64,000 nucleotides of DNA from Actinostola sp. cb2023 (taxonomy: Eukaryota; Cnidaria; Anthozoa; Actiniaria; Actinostolidae), in NCBI GenBank assembly GCA_033675265.1, contig JAUJYZ010001371.1, forward strand, positions 225,001 through 289,000, read 5' to 3'. Position numbers and translations under genes: made by a program. Each line of letters opens with the position of its first letter. The first letter of the stretch is position 1. Positions 34,141 to 61,181 of the stretch are shown here, piece after piece. The notes under the pieces are model-generated. The model was not told the origin of the DNA. It worked only from the letters and a program-made list of their open reading frames with translations, and did no database searches.

Positions 34141-35167
34141 GCGGCCACGAACAACACTCCACTGGTATACGTCGGATCAAACAATGATCTAACTGGTTCG
34201 CAAATTTAGAAATAGGTTAAATGAAGAATAACCAATACGACGTAGAATATTTCGGATTTAATTTTGCACAATATTTCGACTAGCCATACTAGTCTTCATC
34301 AGGTGCATATGAGATTTTACAAGTGACTTGACTATATATAATGGTAAAAAGGAAATGACGTTTTAGTATATGATATGATAGCGAGAGATAAGTAACGGTG
34401 TAACTGATTAGTAGGTTTCATCGCGTTTATTAAGGCCATTAGGTTCAAGAGTGTTAGCACGTGTTATGAGATAAGCTTCTTTGGCTTTGCGAATAGCATC
34501 ACGAGAAGAGAGAAAATTTGTTCTAAAGGAATTAAAAGGATATTAGATGCAGAGTGGTCAGGGTTAGATAGAAAATGTTCAGATGCAGTAGTGGGTTTGG
34601 ATTTACTAGAAGGTTTGTCAACTGTCCTACGATGTTCGTTGAAGCGGTCTTTGAGTCTACGTTTGGTTTCACCAATGTACTGTTTGTGACATTTAGTACA
34701 TTGAATCATGTAAATTACGTTTTTTGTGTTACAGTCCATGTGTGTAGTAATGGTTCTGGTTTCACCCGTAGAAGTAAAAGTATATTGGGTGCAGTTATCG
34801 GAAATGTAAGGGCAAGTTAAACAGTTTTGTCCACAACGAAAAGAACCTGGATTGTGATTGGAAGCAGTGTTGGAGTTATCTGACGGTAGTTTGGATTTGA
34901 CTAGCAAATCACGTAGATTGGATGAACGTCGGAAGGCTACTAAAGGGCGTTGGGGGAAAATGGTTTTGCAACGCACGGAGGAATGTAGAAGGTCAAAATG
35001 TTTCTTAAAGATAGGAAACATAGATGGAAGTGATGGATTATAGGTGACTATAAAGGGAATTCGGTGAGAGGAATTAGATTTCTGTCTAGGTTGTAGAGCA
35101 AGATTGCGAGGGATGTCAGCAGCGCGTTTAGTTTGTTTAGTGATCCCTAAATCGCTATTTACAAGCA
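34141..35167 (-). pseudogene. Penelope-like retroelement 3' half with GIY-YIG nuclease (minus copy)
   Basis: The frame 35168-34464 holds the post-RT linker, the zinc-finger-like CGQNCLTCPY and the GIY-YIG core KNVIYMIQCTKCHKQYIG. These are typical of endonuclease-bearing Penelope elements. A CT insertion near 34514, relative to the copy at 54528, shifts the last 30 or so codons out of frame. The 3' tail (34141-34400) contains a hammerhead-like core. The 5' end joins a plus-strand fragment of the same family at about 35168, head to head. Confidence 0.87.
34274..34302 (-). ncRNA. Candidate hammerhead ribozyme core in Penelope tail (minus copy)
   Basis: On the minus strand CTGATGA is followed by a 6-bp stem (GACTAG/CTAGTC, 5-base loop) and GAAA, the conserved hammerhead core. 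Penelope elements are known to carry hammerheads in their terminal repeats. I could not identify a convincing stem I, so activity is uncertain. Confidence 0.45.
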
Positions 35168-35875
35168 TATCACCTATAAAGACTCAAAATGAAACTTTTC
35201 ATCGTAACTGGAGATTCATTTCGCATTTTGCCGCCCGCCGTTATCTCAGACTGCTCATCAAAGAATGTAAGAACACTATTTGTTATTTAACCTCTGAACT
35301 GAATATTTATATATATCGATGATATTTTTATGGTCTGGACAGAAGGTCCTGATAACCTAAAAACTTTCATCGATTATCTTAATAATATTCATCCCACCAT
35401 AAAATTTACTAGTTTTCACTCTTCTAGTAATGTCCCGTTTCTTGATGTCAATGTATCCCTTAATAATGGAGTCATTGAAACTGACCTTTATAGTAAACCT
35501 ACTGATAAACATCAGCATCTGCTTTTTTCATCTTGTCATCCTAGTCATACTAAAAAAGCCATTCCTTTCAGCTTAGCTCTCCGTCTCAGACGAATTTGTT
35601 CCACTGAGGAAGCTTTTAAAAACCGTACCTCTGAACTTATCTCCTATCTCCTTAAACGAGGTTACAGCCGTGACTTTCTCACTAAACAAACTAAACGCGC
35701 TGCTGACATCCCTCGCAATCTTGCTCTACAACCTAGACAGAAATCTAATTCCTCTCACCGAATTCCCTTTATAGTCACCTATAATCCATCACTTCCATCT
35801 ATGTTTCCTATCTTTAAGAAACATTTTGACCTTCTACATTCCTCCGTGCGTTGCAAAACCATTTTCCCCCAACGG
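35168..35875 (+). pseudogene. Penelope-like reverse transcriptase fragment (plus copy)
   Basis: YIDDIFMVW at about 35312-35338 is the catalytic YxDD motif of Penelope RT. It is followed by FIDYLNNIHPTIKFT, FLDVNVSL and the thumb/linker shared with the minus copy. The frame is cut at about 35874 within the linker (IFPQR) and is truncated just upstream of the YxDD motif. It has no GIY-YIG domain. Confidence 0.85.
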
Positions 35876-36365
35876 AAGTTGTCCAGTTTAGTGTGAAAAT
35901 CTTCAAGCGATATGTCAACAGACGTGACTGATCTCAATTAACAGCTCATTTTAAGTAAACAACTCTTATCAGTGGTACCACTTCGCGACTATCTTGGATT
36001 CCAGAGCACAGTAGGATAATATTTTGTCCTTCTGCATGCAGCTAAATACATACATGTATACTACGAGTCGTTCCTGTCCTGGACGTCGCAATTTTCCTCA
36101 GCCTTTGTATCTTCTCGTCAGAAACGAAATAGTCAAAAAATGTAATATAGTTTTATTGCAGAAATGTGTTATTGTTTAGTTATAATGTGAAGTATGTAAT
36201 GCTAAATAAGCTGATCGACCAGGTGATTGAAGTGTACTTTAATTTCATGGGTTTATGAAAACCATTCTAACACCGAGATCTAGCTACTGAACATGCATGG
36301 TTTCCACTTGATCGCCAGGATCACCAGGATCGCTGAACACGCCGGTTTCTCCGGGCGATCCGGTA

Positions 36366-36442
36366 TACCCTGGTTCCAGAAGCTTTGTTAAGCTCTATAA
36401 TACGATGTTTGCAGCTCGTGGGATACCTCTGGAACCAGGGTA
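36366..36442. mobile_element. 77-bp hairpin MITE
   Basis: TACCCTGGTTCCAGA and its exact inverse TCTGGAACCAGGGTA bound a 47-bp loop, with TA at the ends. Bases 35876-36365 before it hold nothing recognisable. Confidence 0.75.
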
Positions 36443-36762
36443 CTGAATCGATAGAAACCAGGCTTGACATTATCTCTATTGTCATCATTAAAGCAATAGA
36501 TAACTGACTGACCATAGCTACTCAACTCGATTAGCTGTTTTTAGCTATTTTGAGTAGCTGTGCTCAATTCCAACATTAAATTTTATACATATCTATATAT
36601 GTGTGTCTGTATACACAGATACGCATATATCTCAATGTAATCACAATGAGCACAATAAAGTTGTTACTTGTTATAGTCATTATAGTAAGATTGAATATAG
36701 ATTGTGGTTCTCATAAACTCGTGAAATACATACACTTTTATATGCACTCTCAATTGTAAAAG

Positions 36763-36981
36763 GTTACACGAGACGATTCGCAACAACGATTTTCCGCTCA
36801 ACACTTGGTCAATTTCACAAGTTCGTTACAAAAAATTAAAATTAAAATCAAACAAAATTTTAAAATTGAAATGAAAGAAAAATGTCGCTAAAAATTGTTC
36901 CGTTTTGTATGTTCAACGGCATAAACTTTACGTGTGACATTGTTGCACGGAAAAGCGTTGTTGCAAGTCGTCTCGTGTAAC
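36763..36981. mobile_element. 219-bp MITE with 35-bp inverted repeats
   Basis: The left end GTTACACGAGACGATTCGCA and right end (36947-36981) are near-perfect inverted repeats. The interior is AT-rich and non-coding. It ends 14 bp before the stop codon of the Sae2/CtIP-like gene, within that gene's 3' UTR. Confidence 0.82.
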
Positions 36982-36995
36982 ACCGATTCAATCGA

Positions 36996-37898
36996 TCACT
37001 CCTTATTTTCTTTTTTTTTTTGATGCGCTTCCGGTATCATTTTTTTTTCTTTTTCTTCTTTTTTTTCTTCTTTTTCTTCTTTTTCTTCTTTTTCTTCTAT
37101 TTCTTCTTTTTCTGTTTCTGTGACTCCTGGTCCTGTCTTCTCTTTCTCTTCAGCTTGAAAATGGAGCCTTCTCCACTTCCTTAGCCGCCTCTTAGATCGC
37201 TCTCGGCGGGGTGGAACCGGCACTGCATCTTTACATACTACAGTACGAAGAGTAGGAATGAGCATTTGTTCACGCTTTAAACACAATTCACTGAGTTTTG
37301 AAACCTGGCCATGGTTCTCTTAAGGTCTTGGCGTTATTTACATTACTGAAGTCATGCTAGATCTCATGATCACGTGACCGTGACCCTAAACTCCCGCATG
37401 CACTCAATCAAATTGAATTTCAGAGAACATTTTGATTTTTGGTTCCTATTTTAAGTGTGCTGCTGTTTACTGATTATGGGCCTGCTTCGAAATATACATT
37501 GAATACTGAATTAAAAATAATAATTATATATTTCGACACTTCATAACGTAACTGGCATAGCATATGACTTACCATCTCCGTCCAGTCAATGCACCAGCGG
37601 CCATGTACTCGGGTGTGCTGGGGAAATCTATGTCCCAGAAACCTGGTGGAGTTCTTGGTGGTGGCCTTGTTTCCGATCGATGCCTGCACGATCTCTGTAC
37701 GCGTTGTGCCATCTCTTCAGCACTGAACGACTGGTAGTACTAGCAAACAATAAAAGACGTGTGTTTGAATAATGCCCCAGCTCACTTGCCCTTTATAAAA
37801 CCTGATTTGAATACAGCCGCAATAGAAGTACTTACTTCCTCGCAGTCCCGGCACGGGTAGGCGGGATCTTGCCAGCGTTTTCTTCCTCTTTTCGGCAT
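36996..37898 (-). CDS. Sae2/CtIP C-terminal-domain protein (174 aa)
   Basis: Exons 37836-37898, 37573-37739 and 36996-37290 splice with GT-AG borders to 175 codons including the stop. The N-terminal half reads like the conserved Sae2/CtIP (RBBP8) C-terminus: CRDCEEYY, then SCRHRSE, then TPPGFWDIDFPSTPEY. This is the Cys pair, RHR and FW..FP.T pattern of the domain that activates MRE11-RAD50 nuclease at DNA ends. The long N-terminal coiled coil of full CtIP is absent. The C-terminus is a basic patch followed by a Glu/Lys low-complexity tail. The start MPKRGRKRW is chosen as the first Met before the domain; the open frame continues upstream to 38213, so an upstream exon is possible. It is divergent from the RAG1-like gene. 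Confidence 0.78.
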
Positions 37899-38256
37899 TG
37901 TCAGTAATTCAGATCTCTCAGTACCAGCTCGCAAACACAGTGAAATAATTTCTACTGGCTTGGCACACATCAGATATTTCACAGCTCCCCCCCTGGCTTG
38001 TCGCTTACGTAAGCATTCGATTGCCAGTTTATTTACCTTCAGTAATACAACATTAAACAGACATGGTCTTATAGAAGAAAGTCTTATGGTCTTATTGAAG
38101 AAAACTTCATTTTTGTCGGAGCTGCATAGTCCCGATTGGAGGACCTCCTGATGATGGTGTTTTTCTTTAACCCTAAAAACAGGCGGTAGTATTAAACCTG
38201 TCAAAAACTCCACTCAAGCAAACAATATATAATTCCACTATGGTGCACTATATGAG

Positions 38257-38335
38257 CGCGTTCACATTAGGACTTTCTAGCTAGCTAAAGACAGTTTAGC
38301 TAGTTAAGTCGATAACTGACCCCAGTGTGAACGCG
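38257..38335. mobile_element. Hairpin MITE
   Basis: CGCGTTCACA and TGTGAACGCG bound a 59-bp interior with CTAGCTAG motifs. It lies between the divergent Sae2/CtIP-like and RAG1-like genes. Bases 38336-39464 hold no further recognisable feature. Confidence 0.7.
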
Positions 38336-39464
38336 TTTTTTTCATTTGGTAATATTGACCGGAAACAGGGAAATTTCAAACAATGTCGGGACATGGTTTC
38401 ACTCTGGAAACTCATAATGGTCATTGGTTTTGACAGATGTTTACTAAATGTCACTGAATTATCGCGCGTACTGAGCCGCAGGTTCTCATTTAGGTTTTAT
38501 TCGTGTTTGAAGACAGCCCAAACTTTGTTTCTTCTCTCTTCGTTGTTTTAGATTCGTTACTTGAGGTCAAGGGGCAAAACTATATATCTATTCTCGTCTA
38601 TATTTAGATTGAAACAAGTAGCGTGAAGTCGGGCTATTAACGTTTTTACTGATATACCGTAAAGTTCCGAAAGTTAGCCTCCTCCGCAGGCTAGTCTATA
38701 TAGCTAGGGATACTGAATATCGGTCCACAGCCCGGCCATACCGAACTTCATTTCAGAACGCAATTGCACCAGGGTACGAGTGAACGCTCAATGTCTTGTA
38801 TTCAAGATTTATGAGCAGAGCTCAGTTCTGACAGCACTTCTAGTATAGTCGGTAGTCGTGGAACGATGAGTTTTAACGATGACCCAAGAGCGAACCACTT
38901 GACCAGTTTGAGCATATAATTACTTCAATAGGACCCATTAGGAGTTCAGATATGATCGCCCCAGTTTTCAGCCAATCGAAACCCTGAAACAGACATTCCT
39001 GACCGACGATCACATTATTCACATTTAGTGGCCAACGAAGAAGAATAAAAAAATAAATATAAAAGAAAACGCAATTTCTAACTCGTACACTTCCTCCGGT
39101 AATGTCCGAGTCAAAATAAAATTAAAATAAAATTATCATTGTAAGTTTATAAGGCATAAGAAAAAGCTCTCATTGCGTTTTTAAACTGATCCAAATCGCG
39201 ACTTTTCAGTGAGCATGGGCTACCTGTGGTTCACCCAGGCTCTCGCACGAATTAGCTTGGAACGCCTAGTAGTAGTGCTTAGATGTTTTATACTCAGTGT
39301 GTACCGACTTGTAGTTGTACCAGGACTTGTACAAATACACATCTATATAAACGTGCGACAATTCAATAACTAACCAAACTTAATTCCTTACTTGAGCGGG
39401 AAATTCAAACTAAAATGCATTGCATGCTGAATATTATTTGGCGCCAGAACATGATGAAGGAACG

Positions 39465-42400
39465 ATGGAGAGATCTCAATGGTCGCTTCATAGAGTGCTT
39501 GGCCCGAACCTGGATCCAGCCAAATCTTGGTATGCTCTTTCTAAAGAACTTTGTGGGGTTAACCCAAGGGACTTTGCTAAAAATTCGTTCTTCAAATATT
39601 TCCCTGATGAAATAGCCTTTGAAAACAAGAAGGATCTCATCGTCATAAATGGCGGGAAGCGACTTCCCTTCGCAGCGGTTCTCTCTGAGAAAGGGGAGCC
39701 ATTGCAAAGGCAACCAACCAAGATTCATTTAGCTACTACACTCGGTTTATTTTATGGGCTGTTGAGACAGAGAGCCTTTCCAATGGACGATTTCCATCAG
39801 TCATCCATTTTTAAATGCGTCTCTGACTTTGTGAATGGCCTTCGCTTCGATGACATGGTAGATGGCCAAAGTTCAACTATGTGCTCCAATAAGCAGGAAA
39901 ACATCGCCAAAACTGACTGTAAACTTACATCGATTTCGACGTCAGGGAAGCCAAAGGTTGAAAGTCATGAAATGAATATCAGTGAGCTTAAAGCGAGTCC
40001 AATGGGGCCAACAACGACAAAGAAATCAATTTCTGCTCGTTGCAGTAACTTGTATTCTTATTTATCAGACGTCTGTAGTAATCATAGAGAATCATTAGCC
40101 TCAGTTCTAGGAAATACCTTCATTTATGGCAACGAGACTGAACAAGATGCCATAAGAGACATATTATCAGAAATTGGTGAAAAGGTCATTGAAAGTAAAG
40201 GAGCGCAGAATGTTATTCAAGAATGCTTTTCTGATGAGATTCATCAAAAAGTATTACGAAGTATGAGAGTACCTGACTGGGCTCTGTTGTATTTGAAGCT
40301 GGAGTCAAGAATGCCTGACGCAGCATGGCAGACATTGCTGAACATTACCCATCTAGGAAAAAGTGGGGTTAGTATTCCTTCAATGTTGTTTGAAAAATAA
40401 TTGTCAGTTTTAACCTACATTATTTTGTACCATGTCATGTACTACCCCCCAAAACATGTACATGAAAATTGCATGAAAATTGCATGGTATTGAAATGGAA
40501 CTTCATCACTTTTATTTACTACAGACATCACTTATAGAACGATTTGATATGTTGAATAATAAAATTTTACTGAGTTTTTATCCATTGATTCATCAATGAA
40601 GGCTGCTGTGATGTCATATGCATGCAACCCAGGAATATATTCCTTTATTCAGTTTGTTCATTCATTCAGTTTGTCTTCTTCAAGCTAAGAGCAGTGACAT
40701 ATAATCAGTCTGCAGTTAGTTTTCTAAATAGGAGTTTCACAATTTCATCTGTGTATGGGCGCTCTGGTTTGAATATTTGTTAACTAACAATCTAATTCAT
40801 CAATAGTGTTCAGATTTCTACTAGTATACTACCATTAAAAGTAATACTACAGTATAAAAATTAATGTGTTCTATATATCGTAACACAGTTTGTTTAACTA
40901 TCCAGAGAAATACAGATACACCACTGCTTCTCACCAAGAACCAAGTGAAGGCCATAAAGTCTATGGTGTTTGAAGTAACCAAAGAAATGTTTCACATAAA
41001 AAAAATTGAAGTTGCAGATTTTGATGCTTGGTCTGTTGACTTATCAATGGTGTTGGTATGGGCAATACGAGAGCAACGAGTATTATCAGCAGATCGCCAA
41101 CAAATAGAATTTAATATAAAGCTAGATGGAAGACCACTGGGAGGTGAGTTATTGTTATTTGTAATAATTAATTATTGTTTGAACTAGACATGCATGCATT
41201 AGTACATGTGTGTGTGTGCTATGTGTGTGCAAGTAAGGGGTATGTACAATGCCTAACCTTTTATTCCTAAGTTATTATTATATTATTAATCTTTTGGCAG
41301 GGTAGCAAAGGGGTTACAAGTGATGCGTGATTTAATTGGCCCAAAAATGGTGCATGAATCATGAAAAACAACTTCATAAACAATATATAAAACTGTGATT
41401 CATGAATTTGCAAGAAAGATGTGTGTGAAATGGCTTAAATGATTCTTTTGAGTCGTGAACTTATGAAAAAATGGCACGTGAAGCTTGATCACAACCCCCT
41501 TTGCTACCCTGTTGTGGCTAACAGATCAGAGTAAAAACATTATAATTTGTAAACAATACTACAGTCAATCAAATCTGCTGCATGAAATCTGTCTTCAAAA
41601 ATTAAATAAACTTGTGTCAGACAGGATTCATTCATTTTTACAGGCAAGAATCAGGTAGCAGTTGGCATTGTGCCCATTAATTTTAAAGGCAAGAGTTCAG
41701 AGAGTGCACTGAGTGTGTATCCTGTAGCAATAGGGAACTGCAAAGAGAAAAGGTGAGTCACAGATAAAGGCTAACAAATATACATGTGAAATACTGTACT
41801 TTTATCAAACATTCTTGATCCTTTTTTTGTAAAATTTCCAGATCAAACCTGAAATCATTGATAGCTAATCTAAACAGTCAAAAACAGAAGATAAAAGAGG
41901 AAGGTATCTTAGTTGATGGGAAGAAGTATCGATGCAATTTTACAGGTACGTGTATGATGAAAAAACATTATTACCTTGACAGTAATTAGGCCTGTTCTAT
42001 ACGCCATGCTTTAGTTGTGCCAAACTCCATGTACTGATTAACAATCTTTTAAACTTTTGAAATACTTGCAATTGATACAAAAGAACTGCTCGATAATCCC
42101 CTATTAGACATTCACCTCAACAAATAAACATGCTAATTAATGTTGGAGGTGTTCCCAAAATTTCTAACTTAGTTAGAAAATTACTGCAGATGGCTATATA
42201 CATAATGATTGGTATTTGCATCATCAGCTCAGATCAGGAAAAATCAGAAAACTTTGTAAAGCTATTTTCTTTCTTTGTAGTGACAATGGATTACAAGGCT
42301 TTATTGTTGTTATTACCCAAAAAGGATGATGAAAACTTTATGCTTGGTGGCAAGGGATACTCTGTGGAGTTTTGTGTTTTCTGTGATGCAATAAGGGTCA

Positions 42401-45400
42401 GTTGATGCAAGAAATATCAAATGAATGCAAAATTAAATGGTTGAATAGAGCTTAATATCACCAGAACTTTATAGCATTCAACTACATTGTTACTTAATTA
42501 CTTGACCGATAACATGACCCTCTTATATCTCACATTCTAGAATTGATGGGTAGTCTTTGTTATTAATTCCAGGGTTTCACTGACAGCTGAATTCCTGCAG
42601 TGAAGTCTTTCATATACTACATGTAGCTATTACAGACACATCACTAAATATTTATATAGTTACTTGACACTATAGGTTTTTAGTTTACCCATGTTTAATC
42701 CTATGATGGACAGCTATTGATCTTAATGATCTTTAACATATAGTTATTTCTATTCAAAACACATTCAATCACTTTTAAAGGCATGCCAAGACCATGGAGC
42801 TGATCCAGACGAGGCTTGTGCTGACTGTTTAAGAGCTAAATGTAACATAGAAAGGTACCGGGTTTACAGTAGTAGAGTACTCACTTGTTCCAATAAATGT
42901 TTTGGATCATTGTTTACATTTCTTGGGTACATTGTACATGACTCTCTTGTTACTTTTATATGTTAGTTCAACCCTTGGTTCAATTTTTGTTCAATCCTTT
43001 GGGTTGTATGATACTGATGTATAAAACAAAGGAAACTAATAATAGTAAAATGAAACCACAACATACACATGTGGCTGTAACAATTAAGTTGTCAGGCAAG
43101 CTTTGCCCATCTAACTTTATGTATTTACATGTGTATATGTACCGGTAACTGAAAACATTTAACATTGTGCAATTTAATACAAATTAATTTAACACTGGAA
43201 ATTAATTCTATAACCATAATTGTTTTTGTAAATACCAACAGAGGATGTGTTGCTTGATCACACAATGGACCTCTATATTATTTTATAAATTAAGCTACAT
43301 GTAGTACTTAATACAACTGCACCTTATCACAATTTATCCATTATCTGTTTTTAGGTCAACAACCTTTAGGGATGACTTGACATTTCTCCTTGAAGAAGAT
43401 CTAAGTCACATTAACCTGTGTTCTTTACATTGTGAGCTTCGAAACACTGAGCAGCTGTTGGGATCCCTTGGATTGTTTTCTTACAGAGTTGGGTCCCTGG
43501 ATCTGCTAAATACTACCCTTGCATCATATGGCCCTGAGTCATCACAAGATTTCAAACGTGTCACTATTCGAGAAAGGAGAGGGAAGCAGACTGAAGTTGG
43601 AAAAGGAGACATCAAAGTAGCATCATTTTCTGGTGAGTAGAGCAAACATTTTCACTTTGAATATAACTTAACGAGTCTGTGCAGAGTACATTAACAAAAT
43701 ATATATTTTGGTCAGTCCTCATAAAATTCTGGGTTACAGGTACATGTACCTAGCCCAAACACAGCAAACACACAATTTATGGTGATGTTCATGTACCCAA
43801 TTTTAAAGCACATCTCTGACTGCAAGTCAAATGTTGTTTAATAGTATACACTTCAAACAAATTAAATATTTTGAATTCCTGAGAAGAAAGCATTGCATTA
43901 TGTTGTGCAATTTTAAATTTTGCATTTTTTTTTATTGAACAGCACTTGTAAGCATTTTACATTGAATGTATACAGGTGGTACCGAGAGAAAGATTCTGGG
44001 CAACTTTGGCTCCATTGTTAGAGCTGCACTTCCAATTGACAGTGTTAAGAAGTACTTTTTGGAATGTAAAGGCTCAGCAGAACAACAAATCTTGGAGTAT
44101 TTATCTTTTTTTGAAGAATGCAAGAAGGTATTAAAAAAATGTATTGTATGATTCTGTCAAGTAAGAAAAATCAATGGATTCAAAATTTAAGCTGAAAAGT
44201 AATGGAGTTTGTGTCTGTCCATTTCAAGCTGTTTTCTTCCTTTCAGAATACTGAGTTCAGAATATTCTTTTACCCCCTGCTATGAACATATTTAGAATTT
44301 TTCACTAATACAATGTACATATCATATGTATATATTGGATGTTTTAAGCAACAACAACAAACTACATGTACCCTTAGATAAGTGGCTGCAGCCACTTTAA
44401 AGATTGTGTATTTCCAGAAAATATCCATACCCCACTGAGGAGGGAATTGGAAATTCTGGAGGGGAGGGAAAGGACAGAGAAATAACAAAATTACATATTT
44501 CCCTGAGGTAGTGGAGTCCATTTACAAATTCCCTCCTCGGTGGGGGTATGGTATGTATATTTTCTGAAACTACACATTTCACATGAAGTTGGTTTTTGAT
44601 CTACTTTTATGATCTACTTTTATTACTGCTCATAAAATTCAATTAATCACCATTTAAATGCAGTTTATACAGGGCCATCTTGAAAGTGGTGTGTTTGTAC
44701 GTAACCATGGAACAAAACAAGAAGAGGTTATACTGGATGATTGTCCAGGTAAATATGTCATACAAGTACTGTAGCACTACTTGTACATATCATAATGTCT
44801 GAAAATATTTGTACGTTATGTATTTTTGCCACTAGAGACTATTTAGTACTAAATTAGAATAATTATTATTTTAAAGAGCTTAAAGATCACCTAGAAACTT
44901 CATTTAATGGTTGGAATGAAAAACAACACAATGTTGCATCACAATTTGCCACCATCAACTCAAGTGATGTAAAAGAGCCAAAACGAAAGAGACAAAAGAA
45001 AGACAGGACTGATTCTAAGAGTACAAAGCATGATCTTTTTGCTGCCTTAGCAGCTGAACTCCATGTTGAATTTTTTGTCAAGGTACTTCTGATTTCTATG
45101 TTACACTGTGATTGAACTTATTTGATGAAGAAGCAATTTGCTGCTAGAATCAGCTAATATCATACATGTAGTTTGTGTTTCACATCTTTGATTTCTTATC
45201 AAAGGAATTAGCAACCATACTGGTCAGTCATCACACTCTTAATGGATGCCAAAGAACAATTACAAATATATAATTTATGAAAAATGTTTATTGTTAGGTG
45301 CATTACGTATTGTTTCTATCATTGAAGGTGTGTAATGGATGGCGTGATATAGCAATAACCATGCGAGATGAGGTTTTTGGCGAGGATGAAGAGCATTTGA

Positions 45401-48226
45401 TTGATATTTATGATGTTAAGGTACCAACTGTCATTTAATCAATGTGTGTGTGTTTACTAATACATGTAATAATGTACATGTGTAGCTTAAAATTGCAACC
45501 AAATTGAATTCTTCAAATACAGTTGTATATTTATACTGACCAGCTTCACAATTACACAATTTCCTGTTTTATTCTTCTTTGTAGTGCAAAGAATGGGGCT
45601 TGCTTCTCAAGAAACTCTTTGGAATTCATCTGGGTAGTGGCGATTATGGCCATCTCACAATAAGTCACAGCTCCACTTTGTTTAGGGAATTTCGATCATT
45701 CTATCACTACTCGGGACAAGGCTTTGAGTCCAGTCACAAACTTCATAGACAGCTGTATTCTAGAGCAACCAATCACGATGCTTCTGGTCCTGGGCAATCA
45801 AGTAAGCTAGAACTACACGTAAAATATGTCACAATTGCCAATGACTATTTATATACCATAACAAGTGGTATAATATGTTATCAACAAATACATTTTTCCA
45901 AATTCCCTAGTTCAACATCCTACATGTACCTTGATGAATATATTTGGCAAAGTTGTTTTTTGTGCAATTGCCTATTCTTACAGAATGTTTCTGTTTCTAT
46001 ACAGAAACATTTTATCCTTGTTGTAAAATTCATGACTAATAAAAGCTGTTTGTAATATTGGTTTTTCAGTTGGGAATATCCTTTGGCATTGGTATTCAAC
46101 TCATCTACTGGGCTTAAGATACTTATTTTATAATGCTGAAGAATGCATCAGATCTGGTAACAATAATACATGTATTGATAATAGCACCCATGCGGCTTTG
46201 AGGGATATATGTTCTGGCACAGATTGGGGACTTCATCTAATGCCCCAGCCCTCTTGTTCTTTGGTGCTGATAACTAATATCTCAAATTCACCAATGCATT
46301 TATTACTGACAGTATTATTATATTTATTGAAGCTATTTAATATATATTATTGAACAATATTTTAAATATTAGAATTGCTATTGTTTCTTAGCCAGTACCT
46401 TTTTTTCACAATTAGACACAAGGTATTTCCACTTTCGAGGTTGTGGCTGGAAATCGAAAGACAAAGTGATGTTCCGTGATGAGGACAAGCAATGGACTAT
46501 TCTCATTTCAAATCTGTTCTCTAAAATCTTTGGTGATGATTTCTTGAAATATTTTTACAACCCCAAAAAGGGAACCAAGGTGGATGATGAATGCAAGTCA
46601 AGATTGATTGTTTACTGCCATGAGACTTGGGAACTTGGATACAAAGAGCATTTCAAAGCAGCACGTGCTAGTCACCCTGGATGCAGCATTCCAACAACTC
46701 CTGCACCAACATCCGCATCATCTAGCTTGCCGCAAAACAGCTCTTCAACGCCGCCTTCAAGAACCCCACCTGTGTTCCCTGCAACTCCACCACCATCTGC
46801 ATCATCTAGCTTGCCGCAAAACAGCTCTTCAACGCCGCCTTCAAGAACCCCACCTGTGTTCCCTGCAACTCCACCACCATCTGCATCATCTAGCTTGCCG
46901 CAAAACAGCTCTTCAACGCCGCCTTCAAGAACCCCACCTGTGTTCCCTGCAACTCCACCACCATCTCCACATCATCTAGCTTGCCGCAAAACAGCTCTTC
47001 AACGCCGCCTTCAAGAACCCCACCTGTGTTCCCTGCAACTCCACCACCATCTGCATCATCTAGCTTGCCGCAAAACAGCTCTTCAACGCCGCCTAATTCA
47101 AGTACCTCATCTCTGTTTCCTAAAGCAAAAACACAACCCAAGCCTCTGGTAGACATGATATCTGCAAGAATGACGAGGTGGGAAATGGCATCCACAGTAA
47201 ATTGGCTCCCAAAAATTGGCATTGGGATTCCTTCCATCACAGTTTTGTACAATACATTTTTTGCAATGAATCCATGTTTGTTGTCCAAAAGGCCGTGCGA
47301 AACTGTTATCGATACTGCCGAATCACGTCTTTCCAGAGAGAGAATGAATCACAAAAATCCTACAGGTGTGAGAATAACTGGATTTGGAAATTTTGACACT
47401 GATGGTTTGTCCTTGTTAAAGAAATTCTGTGTTATGGTTAAGATAAAACAGAAAGTCTTGGTTGAGGATAAATGGTTATCAAAAAGAAAGGAATGCAGCT
47501 ATCAGGAAAAGGTTGCAATCAAAGAGGCAATGTGGCACACAGTCACCAATACACCAATACTGCAGTTAAATGGCAAGTCTATTGATCCTCTTAATTATTG
47601 CGAACTTGTAGAAGAGAGGTATCTTGACAACTTTATTATCGATATCTGTATTGAAAAATTCTTAGAAGATGCATATGCGCAGGGCATACAAAACACAATG
47701 TATTTACCAACAGAGTTCTTCTTTTGGATGTCCTCGAATGACTCAACTTACATCAAAACACAATTGCAGAGACTGGTAAAGAGTGGTCAAGCTACTGTGT
47801 TGACACAAATCTTGATCCCTGTTCATTTTGATTCTGCACGACACTGGGGAATTGCTGTCGTTGATCTAAACAAACAGCAAATGCTGTTTGACGATGGAAT
47901 GAAACTTCAAATGCCACCAACCAACTTACAGAAGTTAAAAGAAAGGGTTGGATTTCCTGTGTCAGTTGTATCCATCATTACCAGGATTCCAGAAAAAGTT
48001 CTGGTCATGCACAGCCCACCCCCAACACTTTGGCATGCCTATGCAAAACTCAACACCCAATAGCACAATAGGAACTGGAAGCTGTGGAATGGGGGTCATT
48101 CTAGCTGCAAGGGACTTTATCTGGAAGGGATCGAGTGCTGTAAACAACTTTGATTGGTCTTATTCCAACATGGATAGTCACAGGACAAGGCTTCTTCTAC
48201 AAATTCTTCATTGGGCAACACAGTAA
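39465..48226 (+). CDS. RAG1/Transib-like DDE transposase core fused to an Ulp1-type (C48) cysteine protease
   Basis: Fourteen exons: 39465-40367, 40906-41143, 41644-41752, 41842-41945, 42281-42396, 42781-42854, 43355-43632, 43976-44127, 44664-44748, 44877-45082, 45328-45420, 45585-45801, 46070-46156, 46416-48226. All have GT-AG borders and matching phases. Exon 1 is unrecognised. Exons 2-13 look like the RAG1 core: LDGRPLGG (first Asp), TMDYKAL (second Asp), CVFCDA (RAG1 has CTLCDA), SLHCELRN (RAG1 ALHCDIGN), GHLTISH and QGFESSHKL (Glu). H-x4-H-x19-E has the RAG1 spacing, and the WHWYSTHLL region resembles the RAG1 end. Exon 14 adds an 84-bp proline-rich repeat and an Ulp1 domain: HFDSARHWGIAVVD (His), LFDDG (Asp), GTGSCGMGV (Cys). 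Two small frameshifts (about 46970 and 47990) break exon 14. Confidence 0.75.
46711..47095 (+). repeat. 84-bp coding minisatellite (proline/serine-rich linker)
   Basis: Four copies plus a partial copy of a 28-codon unit (SASSSLPQNSSSTPP, SRTPPVFPATPPP) link the transposase-like and protease parts. The copies are almost identical at the DNA level. The third-to-fourth junction carries two extra bases (CCATCTCCACATCATC instead of CCATCTGCATCATC), which shifts the frame. Confidence 0.92.
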
Positions 48227-50745
48227 TTTTGTACATTGTAAATAGAACTGAGAATCATAGGTATTTTAAATGACTAGACCTGTAGACAACAGATATACTT
48301 AGGTGCTTAGGTCACCTGTATGTCTGTGTGACATTGTTCACCTGGTGTCTACCTAGGTCAGCTAGCCAACTGTATTTTATATTTTGTATTACAAATTTCA
48401 ACACAGTAATTTCGTACATTGTAAATAGAACTGAAAATCATAGGTATTTTAAATGACTAGACCTGTAGACAACAGATATACTTAGGTGCTTAGGTCACCT
48501 GTATGTCTGTGTGACATTCACCTGGTGTCTACCTAGGTCAGCTAGCCAACTGTATTTTATATTTTGTATTACAAATTTCAACACAGTAATTTTGTACATT
48601 GTAAATAGAACTGAGAATCATAGGTATTTAAATGACTAGACCTGTAGACAACAGATATACTTAGGTGCTTAGGTCACCTGTATGTCTGTGTGACATTGTT
48701 CACCTGGTGTCTACCTAGGTCAGCTAGCCAACTGTATTTTATATTTTGTATTACAAATTTCAACACAGTAATTTTGTACATTGTAAATAGAACTGAGAAT
48801 CATAGGTATTTTAAATGACTAGACCTGTAGACAACAGATATACTTAGGTGCTTAGGTCACCTGTATGTCTGTGTGACATTCACCTGGTGTCTACCTAGGT
48901 CAGCTAGCCAACTGTATTTTGTATTACAAATTTCAACACAGTAATTTTGTACATTGTAAATAGAACTGAGAATCATAGGTATTTTAAATGACTAGACTGT
49001 AGACAACAGATATACTTAGGTGCTTAGGTCACCTGTATGTCTGTGTGACATTGTTCACCTAGTGTCTACCTAGCTCAGCTAGCCAACTGTATTTTATATT
49101 TTGTATTACAAATTTCAACACAGTAATTTCGTACATTGTAAATAGAACTGAGAATCATAGGTATTTTAAATGACTAGACCTGTAGACAACAGATATACTT
49201 AGGTGCTTAGGTCACCTGTATGTCTGTGTGACATTGTTCACCTGGTGTCTACCTAGGTCAGCTAGCCAACTGTATTTTATATTTTGTATTACAAATTTCA
49301 ACACAGTAATTTCGTACATTGTAAATAGAACTGAGAATCATAGGTATTTTAAATGACTAGACCTGTAGACAACAGATATACTTAGGTGCTTAGGTCACCT
49401 GTATGTCTGTGTGACATTGTTCACCTGGTGTCTACCTAGGTCAGCTAGCCAACTGTATTTTATATTTTGTATTACAAATTTCAACACAGTAATTTCGTAC
49501 ATTGTAAATAGAACTGAGAATCATAGGTATTTTAAATGACTAGACCTGTAGACAACAGATATACTTAGGTGCTTAGGTCACCTGTATGTCTGTGTGACAT
49601 TGTTCACCTGGTGTCTACCTAGGTCAGCTAGCCAACTGTATTTTATATTTTGTATTACAAATTTCAACACAGTAATTTCGTACATTGTAAATAGAACTGA
49701 GAATCATAGGTATTTTAAATGACTAGACCTGTAGACAACAGATATACTTAGGTGCTTAGGTCACCTGTATGTCTGTGTGACATTGTTCACCTGGTGTCTA
49801 CCTAGGTCAGCTAGCCAACTGTATTTTATATTTTGTATTACAAATTTCAACACAGTAATTTCGTACATTGTAAATAGAACTGAGAATCATAGGTATTTTA
49901 AATGACTAGACCTGTAGACAACAGATATACTTAGGTGCTTAGGTCACCTGTATGTCTGTGTGACATTGTTCACCTGGTGTCTACCTAGGTCAGCTAGCCA
50001 ACTGTATTTTATATTTTGTATTACAAATTTCAACACAGTAATTTCGTACATTGTAAATAGAACTGAGAATCATAGGTATTTTAAATGACTAGACCTGTAG
50101 ACAACAGATATACTTAGGTGCTTAGGTCACCTGTATGTATGTCTGTGTGACATTGTTATACTGGTGACATTGGTGTCTACCTAGGTCAGCTAGCCAACTG
50201 TATTTTATATTTTGTATTACAAATTTCAACACAGTAATTTCGTACATTGTAAATAGAACTGAGAATCATAGGTATTTTAAATGACTAGACCTGTAGACAA
50301 CAGATATACTTAGGTGCTTAGGTCACCTGTATGTCTGTGTGACATTGTTCACCTGGTGTCTACCTAGGTCAGCTAGCCAACTGTATTTTATATTTTGTAT
50401 TACAAATTTCAACACAGTAATTTCGTACATTGTAAATAGAACTGAGAATCATAGGTATTTTAAATGACTAGACCTGTAGACAACAGATATACTTAGGTGC
50501 TTAGGTCACCTGTATGTCTGTGTGACATTGTTCACCTGGTGTCTACCTAGGTCAGCTAGCCAACTGTATTTTATATTTTGTATTACAAATTTCAACACAG
50601 TAATTTCGTACATTGTAAATAGAACTGAGAATCATAGGTATTTTAAATGACTAGACCTGTAGACAACAGATATACTTAGGTGCTTAGGTCACCTGTATGT
50701 CTGTGTGACATTGTTCACCTGGTGTCTACCTAGGTCAGCTAGCCA
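48217..50745. repeat. 184-bp tandem repeat, about 14 copies, in the 3' UTR
   Basis: The array starts at AACACAGTAATTTTG, which includes the last codons and TAA stop of the Ulp1 frame, and continues as near-identical 180-184-bp units to 50745. Variation is small (TGACATTCACC versus TGACATTGTTCACC; TTTTGT versus TTTCGT). A larger change is seen near 50135-50170. If transcription ends at the AATAAA at 50753, the whole array is 3' UTR. Confidence 0.95.
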
Positions 50746-50752
50746 ACTGTTC

Positions 50753-50758
50753 AATAAA
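50753..50758 (+). other. Candidate poly(A) signal of the RAG1-like/Ulp1 gene
   Basis: AATAAA is the first canonical signal seen immediately after the 184-bp array, 23 bp before the convergent zinc-finger stop codon. Confidence 0.5.
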
Positions 50759-50780
50759 TACAATTCTATAAAAACTAATT

Positions 50781-52157
50781 TTAAGTCGAAAACTGAACTT
50801 TACCTACATAAAAACGAACACTCATTTTACCATAATTGGGCTTTGTATACAAATTCGGCCACCAGATTATTTCAAGTTCACGTGATGGTAGGCCTTTGGC
50901 TTTGTCACGCACAACGATTTGTGACGAGCAAGTTGGTTGAGATTTCGAAACAGAACGCCGGATCGCCTCCTGGATTGCATCTTCTGCTGTTCTGATCGTG
51001 GATGCGGATTGTGGGCTATCGTTGACCTCCTTGTCTCCTCTCCATTGACGACTAGTCGTGAACGGTATGTCACCTTTGGCTAGAACATCCCTTAACTTTC
51101 CGAGGTCATAGATCTTGTATGACACTCGTCTGGCCGCTGCAGTCAAGATTGGAGGCCGCCAATGACTAGTGTCCTTTACAGAATATGGAATATTCTGTCC
51201 AAGGTCATAGAGGAAGTTTTGGAACAGCGAAGTCGGTACATAATTGAGTTCAATTTTGTGCCATTTAGCTAAAATATAAACAACAAATTAGAAAACTCAT
51301 AATTAAGAAACAAGAGCTTGGCTTAAATATGTTTTGAAAATTTCAGGGAGGATATTAAGCCCTGACTGAATGAGGAAACATGCTACCAGAAACAAGCATG
51401 ATTAACGGATCACGGCACTGACACAGTCATGGTAGTTTCACACGTACGAAATCTGCTCTAAGAACATTCACATACAATTCAATAATAAAGACGCGTTGTA
51501 ACATTTCGGTTCGGGGTTGATGTGTTGTCTCGTGAAGCATTTGAACAAAAAATACGAGATATATTATAGCATAGTTATTTAACTATGTTTATAGAGAACA
51601 AATGTCTGTTTTTGTATATGCATGAGTGATTCTGCGTGATGCCAAAACAAATAATTTTTTATAAAAGAAATAAAGACTATAACTCTATTATTATTATTAT
51701 TATTGCCATGTGTTTAAAAAAATATCGCACATCGCAAGAAACATTGTGAAACAAGGCTTTATTGTGTCTTGACGTTTCCTAAGTACTAGATAAAACATCC
51801 AAGTCTGAAGTCTGACGTTTTAAGCTTGTCAGCCGGTATTTTATCTAAATTACTTGACGAGCATTAAGCACTCGCACTTAAATCCAAAATTATTATTGAC
51901 TTACCTCTAGCCTTTGGTTTTAGAGAATCATTTAGTCTTTCGGTTAGGCTGTCCAACCAATCTCTGTATGACGTATTTTTGTGGGACAGTCTTTTTGGGG
52001 CTGGTAAGGCGACCTCGTGGTCCTCACACGCGAAACTAAGTTGCCGTGGAGGGTTTCTTTTTGGGTGTTTCGCTCCCCAGTGTTGAAACAGGGCAGCACT
52101 TGTATTGAATGTCTTGTTGCAAAGGTTACAACTTGTAAAGAAAATCTTCAAAGGCAT
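50781..52157 (-). CDS. C2H2 zinc-finger protein of unknown function (246 aa)
   Basis: Two exons, 51905-52157 and 50781-51268, join in phase with GT-AG borders to 247 codons including the stop. Residues 10-31 (CNLCNKTFNTSAALFQHWGAK then H) form one classical C-x2-C-x12-H-x4-H finger. The rest is unrecognised: a segment with RDWLDSLTERLNDSLK, and a C-terminus with IIWWPNLYTKPNYGKM. There is no signal peptide or membrane segment. It is convergent with the RAG1-like gene (the stop is 23 bp beyond that gene's AATAAA) and divergent from the kinase gene, with 216 bp between the starts. It could be a DNA-binding accessory protein of the neighbouring element; that is inference from position. Confidence 0.75.
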
Positions 52158-52373
52158 ATCGTGTCAATTGAAATCAAACTGCTTGTGAATCCTGATGTGT
52201 ATACTTGTTTGAAACTTTATAAATTAATGCATAACAGGGACGCTAAAAGTTTGTCACCTTGAAAATAAGTATGGATAGTGATTGGTTAATGGCCGCAGCG
52301 TCCGGAAATCGAAGTTCGTCTTACAGTTTACTGAATATCAAAGGGTTACATTTTGCTGTTGAGATAGACAAGC
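52158..52373. promoter_or_regulatory. Divergent promoter region, zinc-finger / kinase genes
   Basis: Only 216 bp separate the two divergent start codons, so both 5' UTRs and probably a bidirectional promoter lie here. No TATA box or other specific motif is clear. Confidence 0.5.
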
Positions 52374-53568
52374 ATGGATGAAGAATCGGACCAATCTGCT
52401 GGCCAGGCTTTCAGAAAAAAGTTGAAAGCTATAAAAAAACTTAAAACGAAGAAGTGGAGAGCCAGAAAAAAGGCCAACCGAAAAGCTGCAAACGAAGAGA
52501 GTAGAAGGCAAAAGCTCATCGCCTTACAACAAGAAATCAAAGTCAGATCGGAATCGGAAATAATTCATTCAGCAAAGCGTATGAAAGTAGTGGATGCTTC
52601 AACTCAGGCAAATGATAAAGCAGTATCTCCCATTAAGTCGGTGCCAAATGTTGCTCGATCACGTGGACGCCACATGGTAGAGGCAGCGTTGGCAACTCAA
52701 CTCAACTCAAGTCGGAAAGAATTCGGTATGTGTCCCAAAACAGATCGTGCTTCCAAAGAAACTAGTCGCTGATAAGGGAACAAGACAGAAAGGCAGTTCA
52801 ATTAAAGAACTAAACCCCAACTTGATTTCAAGGATTAAAGGGATCAAGGCACTTGGAACTGGAACATTCGGGACATGCTATCTAGCACATTACCGCAATA
52901 TGACTGTTGCGGTGAAAGAATATCTAGACAACAATGGAAGAAAGTCTTTACGTGAGTTGTCGAATGCTGCAAAGAGGGAAGCGAGGGTCATACAACAACT
53001 CGCTGACCACAAAGGACTGCCCTTCTTTGGAATTTGCACAGAAAATAAACCTGTTAGCATAGTTCTTTTGTTTCACGGCGAAGACGAAAGTAATCTCACC
53101 ATTTATCAGGCATCGAAAAACAAACACGAGTTGAGCCAAGCTTGTTGGAACGAAATATTTTTCTTGACCTGCCATGCCTTGCAGCACATTCATGAATGTG
53201 GATTCGTACACAACGATCTTAAGGCTAATAACGTTGTCCTTGAGAATATCTTAGCAAAAGAAGGGGAACGCCACTACAATCCGGTCATTATCGATTTTGG
53301 AAGAAGCACCCAAGCAGATTTGGCTACCCCGAGACCTCCAAAACCCGTCAGTATGCAACTTGCCAACAAAGATTCGTACATCGCCCCTGAAATTGATGAT
53401 GGTACAGCACCTCCAAGTTTTAAGAGTGACATTTTCTCCTTTGCAAAAATGGTTTTGTTTGTGTCGAAGCGCTGCTCATATAAAGCTTCAGAATTAATTG
53501 GTCAATGTTTGACAAGGCAACCAAACTTGAGACCACCTTTGTCCGTCATTGAAACATACTTTATCTAG
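52374..53568 (+). CDS. Protein kinase with basic coiled-coil N-terminus, frameshifted once
   Basis: The first frame (52374 to about 52705) encodes a Lys/Arg-rich helix starting MDEESDQSAGQAFRKK. The second (about 52705-53568) encodes an intact kinase domain: GTGTFGTCYLA (glycine loop), VAVKEY (Lys), KREARVI (helix C Glu), HNDLKANNV (catalytic loop, HND for HRD), IDFGRS (DFG), YIAPEI (APE) and a final LRPP. The Asp and Asn needed for catalysis are present, so it should be active. The frames differ by one and meet at a CAACTCAACTCAACT run; one CAACT copy more or one base fewer would make them continuous. No splice pair explains the switch. The kinase subfamily is not recognised. Confidence 0.8.
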
Positions 53569-54527
53569 AACAGAAACTAATTGATTCAGTACTAACTTTA
53601 TATAGTACTACATAGAGGTATTTCTAGTATTGTTTTCTATTGTTTCATTATTGCTATTTAGTACTAATTTATAGTTATTTAGTTTTCAAGCTTCTCTAAA
53701 TTGCACTCTACTGTTTCTCTTAAATATTGTCTTACGAAACGAATGTGATTTAATTTTTTTCTCACTGAAACTAATTATGCGCTCGGCTGTACCGCGTGGA
53801 AACCTAAGACAACTTAATATTTTGCAAAACAAAATATTGTATCAGAACACGTCGGCACTCCTGTAGGGCATTTCATAGATAGATGTTTAGTACCATGGGG
53901 TTGTCTATGGAAAGGTATATATAAAGGTTTATATTTCGATGAAATAGTTGCACATAATTGCATGACTCTGAGTGATAATAGATGCTGTAATTTGTCTCTG
54001 CAACAAAACCTAAAATTGCAATGATAGCGCAAGAAAAAAAGGATGTCCGTTTGTAGTGAGATAAACTGATCGATATATATATTCAGGATGTAGACGCAAA
54101 CCAAGGGAGAGAGCATAACTTTCAATCCACTTTGATCTGCTTGAAAATAACTGAGTTGATAGACACAAAGGGTGAATATCTGATATCCTTATCAACTTTC
54201 CACTGATCTGGGCATAATCTCCATAAAGTTTATGTATGTATGTACTATACAATTATTACTGTAAATATACGTTTTGTTATAGCTTGAGAGAAATTATAAT
54301 TGTTTTTGCAAAACTAAAAGCAGAACATATTTTGACCTACGCATTAACACAATTGTGGCATTGTAAGTATGTATTTTTTGATTACACATGATCGCCGTGC
54401 ACTTATAGCACTTTATCGACACCTTTTTGCGATCTTCAGTTGATGGTTCTGCCTTTGATATATTAGCTTAGGAGAGATTAAATCTCTCACAAGGCTTTTT
54501 CTACTTGGGCTAAAGCTCGTCATATCT
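53569..54527. other. Intergenic region after the kinase gene
   Basis: AT-rich. A plus-strand open stretch of about 67 codons without a start Met lies at 53819-54021 (contains GTPVGHFIDRCLVPWGC). It looks protein-like but matches nothing I know. No terminal inverted repeat matching 35876-39400 was found by eye. Confidence 0.4.
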
Positions 54528-55277
54528 ACGTGATTTGCTAGTCAAATCCAAACTACCGTCAGATAACTCCAACACTGCTTCCAATCACAATCCAGGTTCT
54601 TTTCGTTGTGGACAAAACTGTTTAACTTGCCCTTACATTTCCGATAACTGCACCCAATATACTTTTACTTCTACGGGTGAAACCAGAACCATTACTACAC
54701 ACATGGACTGTAACACAAAAAACGTAATTTACATGATTCAATGTACTAAATGTCACAAACAGTACATTGGTGAAACCAAACGTAGACTCAAAGACCGCTT
54801 CAACGAACATCGTAGGACAGTTGACAAACCTTCTAGTAAATCCAAACCCACTACTGCATCTGAACATTTTCTATCTAACCCTGACCACTCTGCATCTAAT
54901 ATCCTTTTAATTCCTTTAGAACAAATTTTCTCTTCTCGTGATGCTATTCGCAAAGCCAAAGAAGCTTATCTCATAACACGTGCTAACACTCTTGAACCTA
55001 ATGGCCTTAATAAACGCGATGAAACCTACTAATCAGTTTACACCGTTACTTATCTCTCGCTATCATATCATATACTAAAACGTCATTTCCTTTTTACCAT
55101 TATATATAGTCAAGTCACTTGTAAAATCTCATATGCACCTGATGAAGACTAGTATGGCTAGTCGAAATATTGTGCAAAATTAAATCCGAAATATTCTACG
55201 TCGTATTGGTTATTCTTCATTTAACCTATTTCTAAATTTGCGAACCAGTTAGATCATTGTTTGATCCGACGTATACC
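54528..55277 (+). pseudogene. Penelope-like retroelement 3' end with intact GIY-YIG domain
   Basis: 5'-truncated in the RT-nuclease linker at about LRDLLVKSKL, then CGQNCLTCPY, KNVIYMIQCTKCHKQYIG, the Arg of LKDRFNEHRR, and stop TAA at 55030-55032. The coding part keeps the frame that the minus copy at 34141-35167 has lost. The tail to about 55277 carries the hammerhead-like core. It lacks the RT, so it cannot move alone. Confidence 0.85.
55139..55167 (+). ncRNA. Candidate hammerhead ribozyme core in Penelope tail (plus copy)
   Basis: CTGATGA, then stem II GACTAG/CTAGTC with a TATGG loop, then GAAA. Downstream ATATT (55166-55170) can pair with AATAT about 20 bases later as a short stem III. 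Stem I is not evident, so this is a candidate only. Confidence 0.45.
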
Positions 55278-55410: not shown

Positions 55411-56023
55411 TGCAAATTAGGGGGCCGCCACGCAGGCTAGTAAATATGTGATGTCACTCAGTCTTCCCTCTTTTCTTGGTAATCAGATATTGCAAAAAAT
55501 CCCGATCCGCCCCCGCATTTGTCAACTCCAGTTTGGGGATAATATTCATGCAAATTTCACTCTCGCATATATGACGTCGGAACATCTGCGTCAACAATAA
55601 TCCATCATCAATGCCATTATCCTGCGAGCAGAGTCAGACTCTCTTTTGAAGAAAGGAACGATCGACGACCTCTACGGCCTAAAGTCAAAGAGAGGGAAGC
55701 AAAACGAATGTCTTCTTGCAGGGTAATTTTCCATTCTTTTAATCAACGAATGGGTCATAACACGTCTGTGTCACACGATTTGTCTGGGGATTTCCGGTTT
55801 TCTTCATATTTCGATTCTGGGAATCCCCGTTACTGAGATGTCACGACACAAGTGGCCAATCGCGTGTCGAAGGCGAGACGGGTCAAGACAAGAAGATGAA
55901 ATCAAAAGTGAAAGTTTTATAGTCAGTGGTATTTAAATTTCGCACCAAGAAGTGTTATCGTCAGTTCACTTGTAGTCTTTGACCAATTTATCGAACGAAG
56001 ACTAGCAAGAAGAAGGCGATTCA

Positions 56024-60992: not shown

Positions 60993-61181
60993 TGCTTAGG
61001 CTTGTGAGTAACGTAATAAAGAAGTAAATCAAACAGATTACTTGCGGAAAACAAAATGTCGGAACGTCCACGTTGTATGAAAAGTAGTTACCAGGCCATT
61101 TCGATTTTTTTTACATTCAAATTCCACAGGGATACCGCAAATACAGCTCGCAATCTGGTTCCGCGTAAAATCCATGAATGA

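Follow-up and report, generated by a model that had tools for sequence, protein, structure and literature searches.

What kind of gene lies between positions 39414 and 48226 of the DNA shown above? The window (the whole stretch analysed, 64,000 nucleotides) is positions 225,001 to 289,000 of contig JAUJYZ010001371.1 (C1047 here), from the 424-Mb assembly GCA_033675265.1 of the sea anemone Actinostola sp. cb2023 (Actiniaria). A first-pass annotation had proposed that a catalytic core like that of RAG1 is joined here to an Ulp1 protease in one spliced gene. We think it likely that the gene is a decayed copy of a transposase gene from an anthozoan DNA transposon family that belongs to the CACTA/Mirage/Chapaev/Transib/RAG1 (CMCT) clade, is nearer to RAG1 than to CACTA and has a C-terminal Ulp1 domain. 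In that case, a predicted relative of the enzyme that cuts antibody genes (vertebrate RAG1-like) is joined to a protease domain of the SUMO-removing type in a sea anemone genome.

The gene model has 14 exons and 13 introns on the forward strand, all of the introns GT-AG. The span proposed at first, 40906 to 48226, fits exons 2 to 14 and omits exon 1, which lies upstream; because exon 1 is a stop-to-stop open reading frame (ORF), the start at 39414 is not fixed. In the list below, numbers with P denote database proteins and those with C denote contigs, or the copies on them; P0001 is the annotated counterpart of the gene, hypothetical protein QZH41_005391 [Actinostola sp. cb2023].

39414..40367, + strand: exon 1, N-terminal region, fold unassigned; similar to P0002, P0006, P0008 and P0013
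40906..41143, + strand: exon 2, predicted first catalytic Asp (KLDGRPLGG)
41644..41752, + strand: exon 3, also in the annotated model P0001
41842..41945, + strand: exon 4, matched by P0001
42281..42396, + strand: exon 5, predicted second Asp (TMDYK) and CxxC zinc ligands (EFCVFC; CVFCDA); matched by P0001
42781..42854, + strand: exon 6, matched by the C1007 and C120 copies
43355..43632, + strand: exon 7, SLHCELRN, the equivalent of ALH795CDIGN in RAG1
43976..44127, + strand: exon 8, matched by P0001
44664..44748, + strand: exon 9, based on comparison with paralogous copies
44877..45082, + strand: exon 10, based on comparison with paralogous copies
45328..45420, + strand: exon 11, matched by P0001
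45585..45801, + strand: exon 12, predicted H-x4-H zinc ligands (GHLTISH) and catalytic Glu (QGFESSHKL); matched by P0001
46070..46156, + strand: exon 13, based on comparison with paralogous copies
46416..48226, + strand: exon 14, end of the core, Pro/Ser/Thr-rich linker and Ulp1 domain; two frame breaks in the window copy
46704..47094, + strand: tandem repeat in the linker with an 84-bp (28-amino-acid) unit; site of the first frame break
47359..48226, + strand: Ulp1/C48 domain, HWG and DDG in one frame and FGMP...GSCGMG in another (47939-48223)
48216..50750, + strand: tandem array of about 14 183-bp units, directly 3' of the gene

P0001 matches the window exons at 78-100% per aligned piece. 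As a gene model it is incorrect: part of the transposase gene is fused in it to a dCMP deaminase (22.4-24.5 kb), exons 1, 2, 6, 9, 10, 13 and 14 and part of exon 7 are omitted, and it ends before Ulp1. A Pfam scan of exon 1 gave no match at E<=0.01.

The eight catalytic and zinc-ligand residues of the RAG1-type core are all present in the window gene, and in RAG1 order. The motifs listed in the first-pass annotation were each found, LDGRPLGG in exon 2, TMDYKAL and CVFCDA in exon 5, SLHCELRN in exon 7, and GHLTISH and QGFESSHKL in exon 12; together they predict a catalytic triad of two Asp and one Glu (DDE), C2 and H2 zinc ligands and a third His. The claim of RAG1 spacing was exact for H-x4-H-x19-E and did not extend to the other intervals (window versus mouse RAG1: D1-D2, 80 versus 108; D2-C, 28 versus 19; C-H795, 54 versus 65; H795-H937, 269 versus 142). 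By itself H-x4-H-x19-E proves little because it turns up in 125 of 2000 sequences made by shuffling the residues of the window protein; conservation and collinearity carry the weight.

Twenty-nine distinct proteins were obtained by a search with the core (13 matches) and one with an alignment (24 matches). Members with a named organism come from Actinostola, Oculina, Exaiptasia, Paramuricea, Pocillopora, Actinia, Nematostella, Desmophyllum, Montipora and Porites. Taxonomy look-up places Actinostola and the octocoral Paramuricea in the Anthozoa, and we take the other named genera to be anthozoan as well. Twenty-seven sequences entered the core alignment (26 proteins and the window; P0001, P0011 and P0013 were excluded as chimeric or partial), and a 150-column filter kept 25 of them, dropping P0012 and P0023. 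Counted over the rows with a letter at the site, many of the models being partial or exon-skipping, the residues are conserved in 18/19 (D1), 22/23 (D2), 23/24 and 22/22 (the two C), 17/17 (third H), 17/17 and 18/18 (H-x4-H) and 16/17 (E). H-x4-H-x19-E occurs in 20 of 32 family sequences (the 29 proteins, the window and two exon-14 pieces), many of the other 12 being partial, and in 120/120 RAG1 rows.

Is the protease domain part of the same protein? An Ulp1 domain in the same gene, as first annotated, proved real: its profile matched yeast ULP1 at E=3e-13 and SENP1 at 2e-10, and the alignment runs through the Cys region in SENP1. What did not hold is an open exon 14 in the window, where it is broken twice, the second frame change falling just upstream of the Cys motif. 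HWG and DDG are invariant in the five Ulp1 rows (P0014, P0006, P0004, P0012 and the window piece), and the Cys motif SCG[IMV]G is present in the four protein rows. The profile matches and this pattern show homology over the Ulp1/SENP catalytic domain, including its predicted His, Asp and Cys. Pfam C48 gave matches below its cut-off only (best E 0.0012) and none for the window piece or the C14 frame. When the profile was built without the window, the two window pieces matched complementary parts of it (model 4-195 and 191-281); this profile also found C1007, C120 and C14.

Fusion of the core to Ulp1 is found in four database proteins from three anthozoan genera (P0004, P0006, P0012 and P0014; P0012 has the C-terminal half of the core only). 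A search for further copies, suggested at first pass, thus yielded these four proteins and at least three more genomic copies in Actinostola with the Ulp1 domain (C1007; C14, which has an open Ulp1 frame; and C120). In C1007, exon 14 is a single open frame of 572 amino acids that takes in the last part of the core, the linker and the Ulp1 domain. Because this exon is open throughout, the fusion is a real reading frame, even though the window copy itself is broken. A point on the other side is that the linker repeat is also out of frame in the C120 paralog. No description of a RAG1/Transib-Ulp1 fusion was found in our searches of the open-licence literature, and one in Repbase only or in a subscription journal is possible. 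The first-pass view that such a fusion is undescribed stands to that extent; it does not extend to CACTA, for which Ulp1 fusions are described in plants (PMC2528002).

Some members carry another domain in place of Ulp1. P0003 (Oculina), P0007 (Paramuricea) and P0023 (Desmophyllum) share the core type and carry a different C-terminal domain with the motif NTCPIDN, and WNGQHY and YDGL in the two proteins that reach that far. By eye this domain resembles a ubiquitin-hydrolase-type Cys/His domain; Pfam (two of the three scanned) and PDB gave no match to support this. Two Actinostola loci, C1542 and C909, also combine the core with the alternative domain. Frames of the alternative domain also occur without a nearby core match (C906, C1068, C257, C271, C291, C509, C1407, C10 and C636); the domain may therefore be a module common to several mobile elements. 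In a tree of the 25 rows, with 6 of 22 inner branches drawn open, the Ulp1 bearers P0004, P0014 and P0006 fall on separate branches, and both included bearers of the alternative domain group together (93/89). A wider reading of these proteins is possible, short of likely: the family may be a superfamily-level anthozoan transposon lineage, sister to RAG1/Transib, intron-rich and with an exchangeable cysteine-protease tail (Ulp1 or the Cys/His domain).

We then asked where the core belongs within the clade. The placement set comprised RAG1 and CACTA. The RAG1 profile had 121 rows, from the best 120 of 235 matches, in which the named ones are vertebrate; its seed was confirmed against RAG1 in the PDB. 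The CACTA profile had 19 rows, from frames of the Actinostola genome. In hhalign, the family (25 rows) aligned to RAG1 in two collinear, in-register blocks with scores of 34.0 (E 0.003) and 27.4 (E 0.023), which span D708-C727/C730-ALH795C and H937-H942-E962. Mouse RAG1 alone gave the same two blocks. Column shuffles (100 in all) scored at most 28.0, and their collinear sums reached at most 42.9, versus 61.4 for the real alignment; the reversed profile scored 13.9. The family scored 24.9 (E 0.081) against the CACTA profile, below the best of 100 shuffles (32.6). CACTA scored 26.2 (E 0.044) against the RAG1 profile, and 27.4 with 40 RAG1 rows, where the best shuffle scored 27.3. Weak scores are expected at such a distance because RAG1 itself finds HzTransib only at E=0.0048. 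The profile-profile check named at first pass thus favoured RAG1 over CACTA, modestly. From these comparisons we place the family firmly in the CMCT clade and consider it probably nearer to RAG1 than to CACTA.

The family might even be a true member of the Transib/RAG1 lineage, with an ancestor shared with Transib that is more recent than the one shared with CACTA. We put this forward tentatively, as a refinement of the favoured reading that does not exclude it. H-x4-H, ALHC[DE]xxN and E-x3-K-L-x-R point to RAG1, the first of these being H-x3-H in CACTA, and the RAG1 profile score lies above all 100 shuffles, which the CACTA score does not. Several results pull the other way, both for this refinement and for the placement near RAG1. 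The signals are weak, and when the window sub-family was left out the two RAG1 blocks scored 27.3 and 22.5 (121 rows), so that the best single block nearly tied with CACTA at 27.1 (E 0.042); RAG1 keeps the second collinear block, and with 40 RAG1 rows the blocks scored 33.6 and 26.8, the best of 100 shuffles being 28.7. At E<=10 neither the window core nor any of seven relatives matched a Pfam RAG1 model, and the core retrieved neither RAG1 nor Transib from the PDB. The CTT motif of invertebrate RAG1-like (RAG1L) proteins, Cx2Cx3GHx4C, was absent from all 32 family sequences, at looser spacing too, and likewise from the 120 vertebrate RAG1 rows. Nor is the x19 interval exclusive to RAG1: CACTA frames from the Actinostola genome show H-x3-H-x19-E in 16/21 (19 distinct) and H-x4-H-x19-E in 0/21, so the spacing to the Glu is clade-wide. 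C(2)C and H(3-4)H are reported as common to EnSpm/CACTA, Mirage, Chapaev, Transib, RAG1, Plavaka, ESTA and Lanisha (PMC12730594). Of the RAG/Transib identity claimed at first pass, a RAG1-like DDE core in one spliced gene with Ulp1 therefore remains, and the motifs on which it was based mark the whole CMCT clade.

Pfam scans of the core gave nothing relevant. The RAG1 family PF12940 had no match in the Actinostola genome, a result that does not show absence. A query of the genome with mouse RAG1 gave 9 weak matches (best E 0.088), and the three inspected (L018, L024 and L025) held no RAG1-like or Transib frame. No RAG2-like Kelch or PHD match was obtained among the 18 window frames scanned, where short exons could escape.

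If the core is that of a transposase, is it still part of a mobile family, or has it been tamed? Core matches to P0003 were found on at least 26 contigs (44 of 539 candidates scored). Near-identical copies matching P0005 lie on C14, C154, C318, C585, C1580 and C648. From the start of the first exon to the Glu exon they measure 6390 (C14), 6365 (C154), 6400 (C318) and 6403 bases (C585); the C1580 copy is shorter, and C648, 2.3 kb from the contig start, shows only the part from the Glu exon on. When the 3' end of the C14 copy (L057) served as a DNA query, C585, C1580, C318 and C648 matched it at 99-100% and stopped at query positions 435, 543, 543 and 548. All four stops fall in the last units of a tandem array of about 110 bp per unit; C154 stops earlier, at 2374, and C585 has further array units beyond its stop (a second match to 987-1320). 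With very common words skipped in the search, positions 1-434 of the query, beyond the array, had no match elsewhere at E<=1e-10. The multiplied sub-family thus has a common 3' end in four of the five copies compared with C14, the comparison being of 3' ends only. Six near-identical copies, four of five of them sharing the C14 3' boundary, favour a DNA transposon over a tamed host gene. The 183-bp array of the window is 85% identical over 89 bp to the C14-type 3' array, and array matches occur on nine contigs, each of which also has family matches. Because of this resemblance and co-occurrence, we read the 183-bp array as possibly the 3' subterminal region of the element.

A host gene family of anthozoans, domesticated from such a transposase and with the protease serving its host function, would account for a different set of observations, and these count against mobility. 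The 14 exons of the gene, with 13 introns at shared positions, would suit a host gene as well; the 10 pieces in which the C120 paralog matches (42-68% protein identity; exon 8 unmatched) break at the window exon cuts. Comparisons between old copies show purifying selection, with pS 0.758 and pN 0.261 (the proportions of synonymous and nonsynonymous differences) for C120 versus the window over 876 codons, and ratios of 0.18 for C763 (197 codons) and 0.40 for C205 (170 codons). Sub-families in the tree mix anemones and corals, and around the window locus are genes for Mlh1, a DRG-type GTPase and dCMP deaminases. The window copy is part of a segmental duplication; inverted repeats do not flank it, and it shows neither a terminal inverted repeat (TIR) nor a target-site duplication (TSD). 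We nevertheless regard domestication as unlikely in view of the number of contigs with core matches and of near-identical copies whose 3' flanks are unlike that of C14. In addition, the window copy is broken, and the ratio of nonsynonymous to synonymous substitution between it and C1007 is 0.96 over 848 codons, with no constraint seen, as for a dead copy.

The extent of the duplication was defined by C1007, whose copy is 96-99% identical to window 35875-54367, with gaps, and lacks exons 1-4. The rest of the window had no match of at least 400 bp and 93% in the 100 kb of C1007 that was compared. That C1007 holds just this piece, and that the piece interrupts a GIY-YIG retroelement, suggested an 18.5-kb mobile unit. 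We rejected this unit: it has no TIR or TSD, 29 bp of the retroelement are missing, and C763 shares only 47404-53254. In the window, GIY-YIG retroelement pieces at 35200-35875 and 54524-55140 flank the duplicated segment, and an inverted copy lies at 34300-35400, to which they are 99-100% identical. Because the two pieces lie 29 bp apart in the element, the 18.5-kb segment seems to interrupt it. A protein kinase frame at window 52681-53568 is co-duplicated with the Ulp1 exon and the array on C1007 and C763. This kinase was rejected as part of the element, since the C120 stretch, which reaches 1.5 kb past the gene, has no match to it. Within the intron that precedes exon 7, the C1007 copy also contains a 6.3-kb insert (C1007:189172-195440), which has long frames and terminal inverted repeats of about 0.8 kb.

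Alternatively, the family could be a divergent branch of CACTA/EnSpm (or of Chapaev/Mirage) in which Ulp1 was gained, as it was in plant CACTA elements (PMC2528002). The first-Asp motif, CxxC, a third His (D[PAYL]MH in the Actinostola CACTA frames) and H-x3/4-H-x19-E are held in common, and the first-Asp block aligned to CACTA at the E values given above, with and without the window sub-family. Even so, we find this origin doubtful. The CACTA profile score falls inside the shuffle range. PF02992 (Transposase_21) gave 130 matches in the Actinostola genome at E<=10, the best at 3.4e-32, and had no match in the window core and the seven relatives, eight proteins scanned singly at E<=10. It is also absent from the best 25 of the 37 families found for 22 members, the rest matching one member at E above 0.23 at best. 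Furthermore, none of the 21 CACTA frames (19 distinct; single frames only) carried the Ulp1 domain of the family. It is very improbable that a transposase gene and an Ulp1 gene unrelated to it were wrongly joined here, as P0001 stopping before Ulp1 and the broken window frame between the two parts might suggest, given that P0004, P0006, P0012 and P0014 are single proteins and that the C1007 exon, contrary to the separate protease gene envisaged at first pass, holds the core end and Ulp1 in one open frame.

How might such a transposase work? RAG1 and Transib cut and join DNA at element ends in a metal-dependent manner. By analogy, the core of the favoured decayed transposase would have cut and joined the ends of its element with metal ions. 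More speculatively, the Ulp1 tail might act on the transposase, or on host repair and chromatin proteins at the cut site, by stripping off SUMO or a ubiquitin-like tag, and tag removal could favour insertion or evade silencing. In a sister lineage, the protease is replaced by the other C-terminal domain with its Cys...His pattern, much as Ginger1 elements have either Ulp1 or OTU.

The combination can be compared with known systems. Like RAG1, RAG1-like and Transib proteins, the family has a DDE core, C2 and H2 zinc ligands, the third His in ALHC, H-x4-H-x19-E and E-x3-K-L, and it shares the two collinear profile blocks with RAG1 (vertebrate RAG1 being the one compared). Unlike RAG1, it has an Ulp1 C terminus, no RAG1 N-terminal domain by Pfam and different remaining spacings; unlike invertebrate RAG1L, it lacks the CTT motif. 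CACTA/EnSpm elements share the CMCT motif set and, in plants, the association with Ulp1 (PMC2528002), and differ in having H-x3-H and DPMH/DYMH where the family has H-x4-H and ALHC, the CACTA frames tested being without the family's Ulp1. ESTA, Plavaka and Lanisha, as described, are similar in C(2)C and H(3-4)H, and ESTA was itself recognised through HHpred similarity to RAG1; in ESTA and some Plavaka, which are fungal, the element carries TET/JBP, and the words protease and Ulp1 are absent from the main text of that report (PMC12730594). Ginger1 likewise has a transposase with C-terminal Ulp1, or OTU in other Ginger1 families, for which a repair-related role was proposed; its core is Gypsy-integrase-like, with 0-4 introns in the published table (PMC2836005). 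Mutator elements with ULP (PMC2528002) and Cryptons with a C48 peptidase (PMC3212892) are further mobile elements with an Ulp1-type protease, and they belong to other enzyme classes. In Arabidopsis KI-MULEs the ULP is in reverse orientation to the transposase (PMC2528002), and in some Cryptons the C48 peptidase is encoded as an additional protein (PMC3212892). Ulp1 on other transposases (plant CACTA, Mutator, Ginger1 and Crypton) is thus already published; the RAG1-like variant appears to be new among them.

RAG recombination needs host repair and is under the control of ubiquitin and SUMO. If our interpretation is correct, elements near the RAG1 lineage acquired their own control of these tags, and if the sister-lineage reading also holds, this would be the first transposase on the RAG side known with its own SUMO protease (by predicted activity). 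The family would then also offer a testable system for the question of why unrelated mobile elements (Mutator, CACTA, Ginger1 and Crypton) repeatedly carry Ulp1-type proteases, and it adds a branch for working out the relationship of RAG1/Transib to CACTA.

The remainder of the window holds other genes and repeats. Two dCMP/cytidine deaminase-like genes, at 22373-24471 and 56006-57744, flank the transposase gene, and further host genes encode a DRG-type GTPase (59898-60995) and the C-terminal region of Mlh1 (62624-63235). A Tc1/IS630-type transposase frame (DDE_3, HTH_Tnp_Tc3_2) lies at 31861-32778. A 368-amino-acid frame at 27127-28233 has a weak Parvo_NS1-type match (E 0.0046, below the cut-off) and may be the remnant of an old parvovirus-like integration. 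Large tandem arrays (units of 52, 101, 49, 21/42, 42 and 32 bp) occupy much of the first 19 kb of the window (1-19327).

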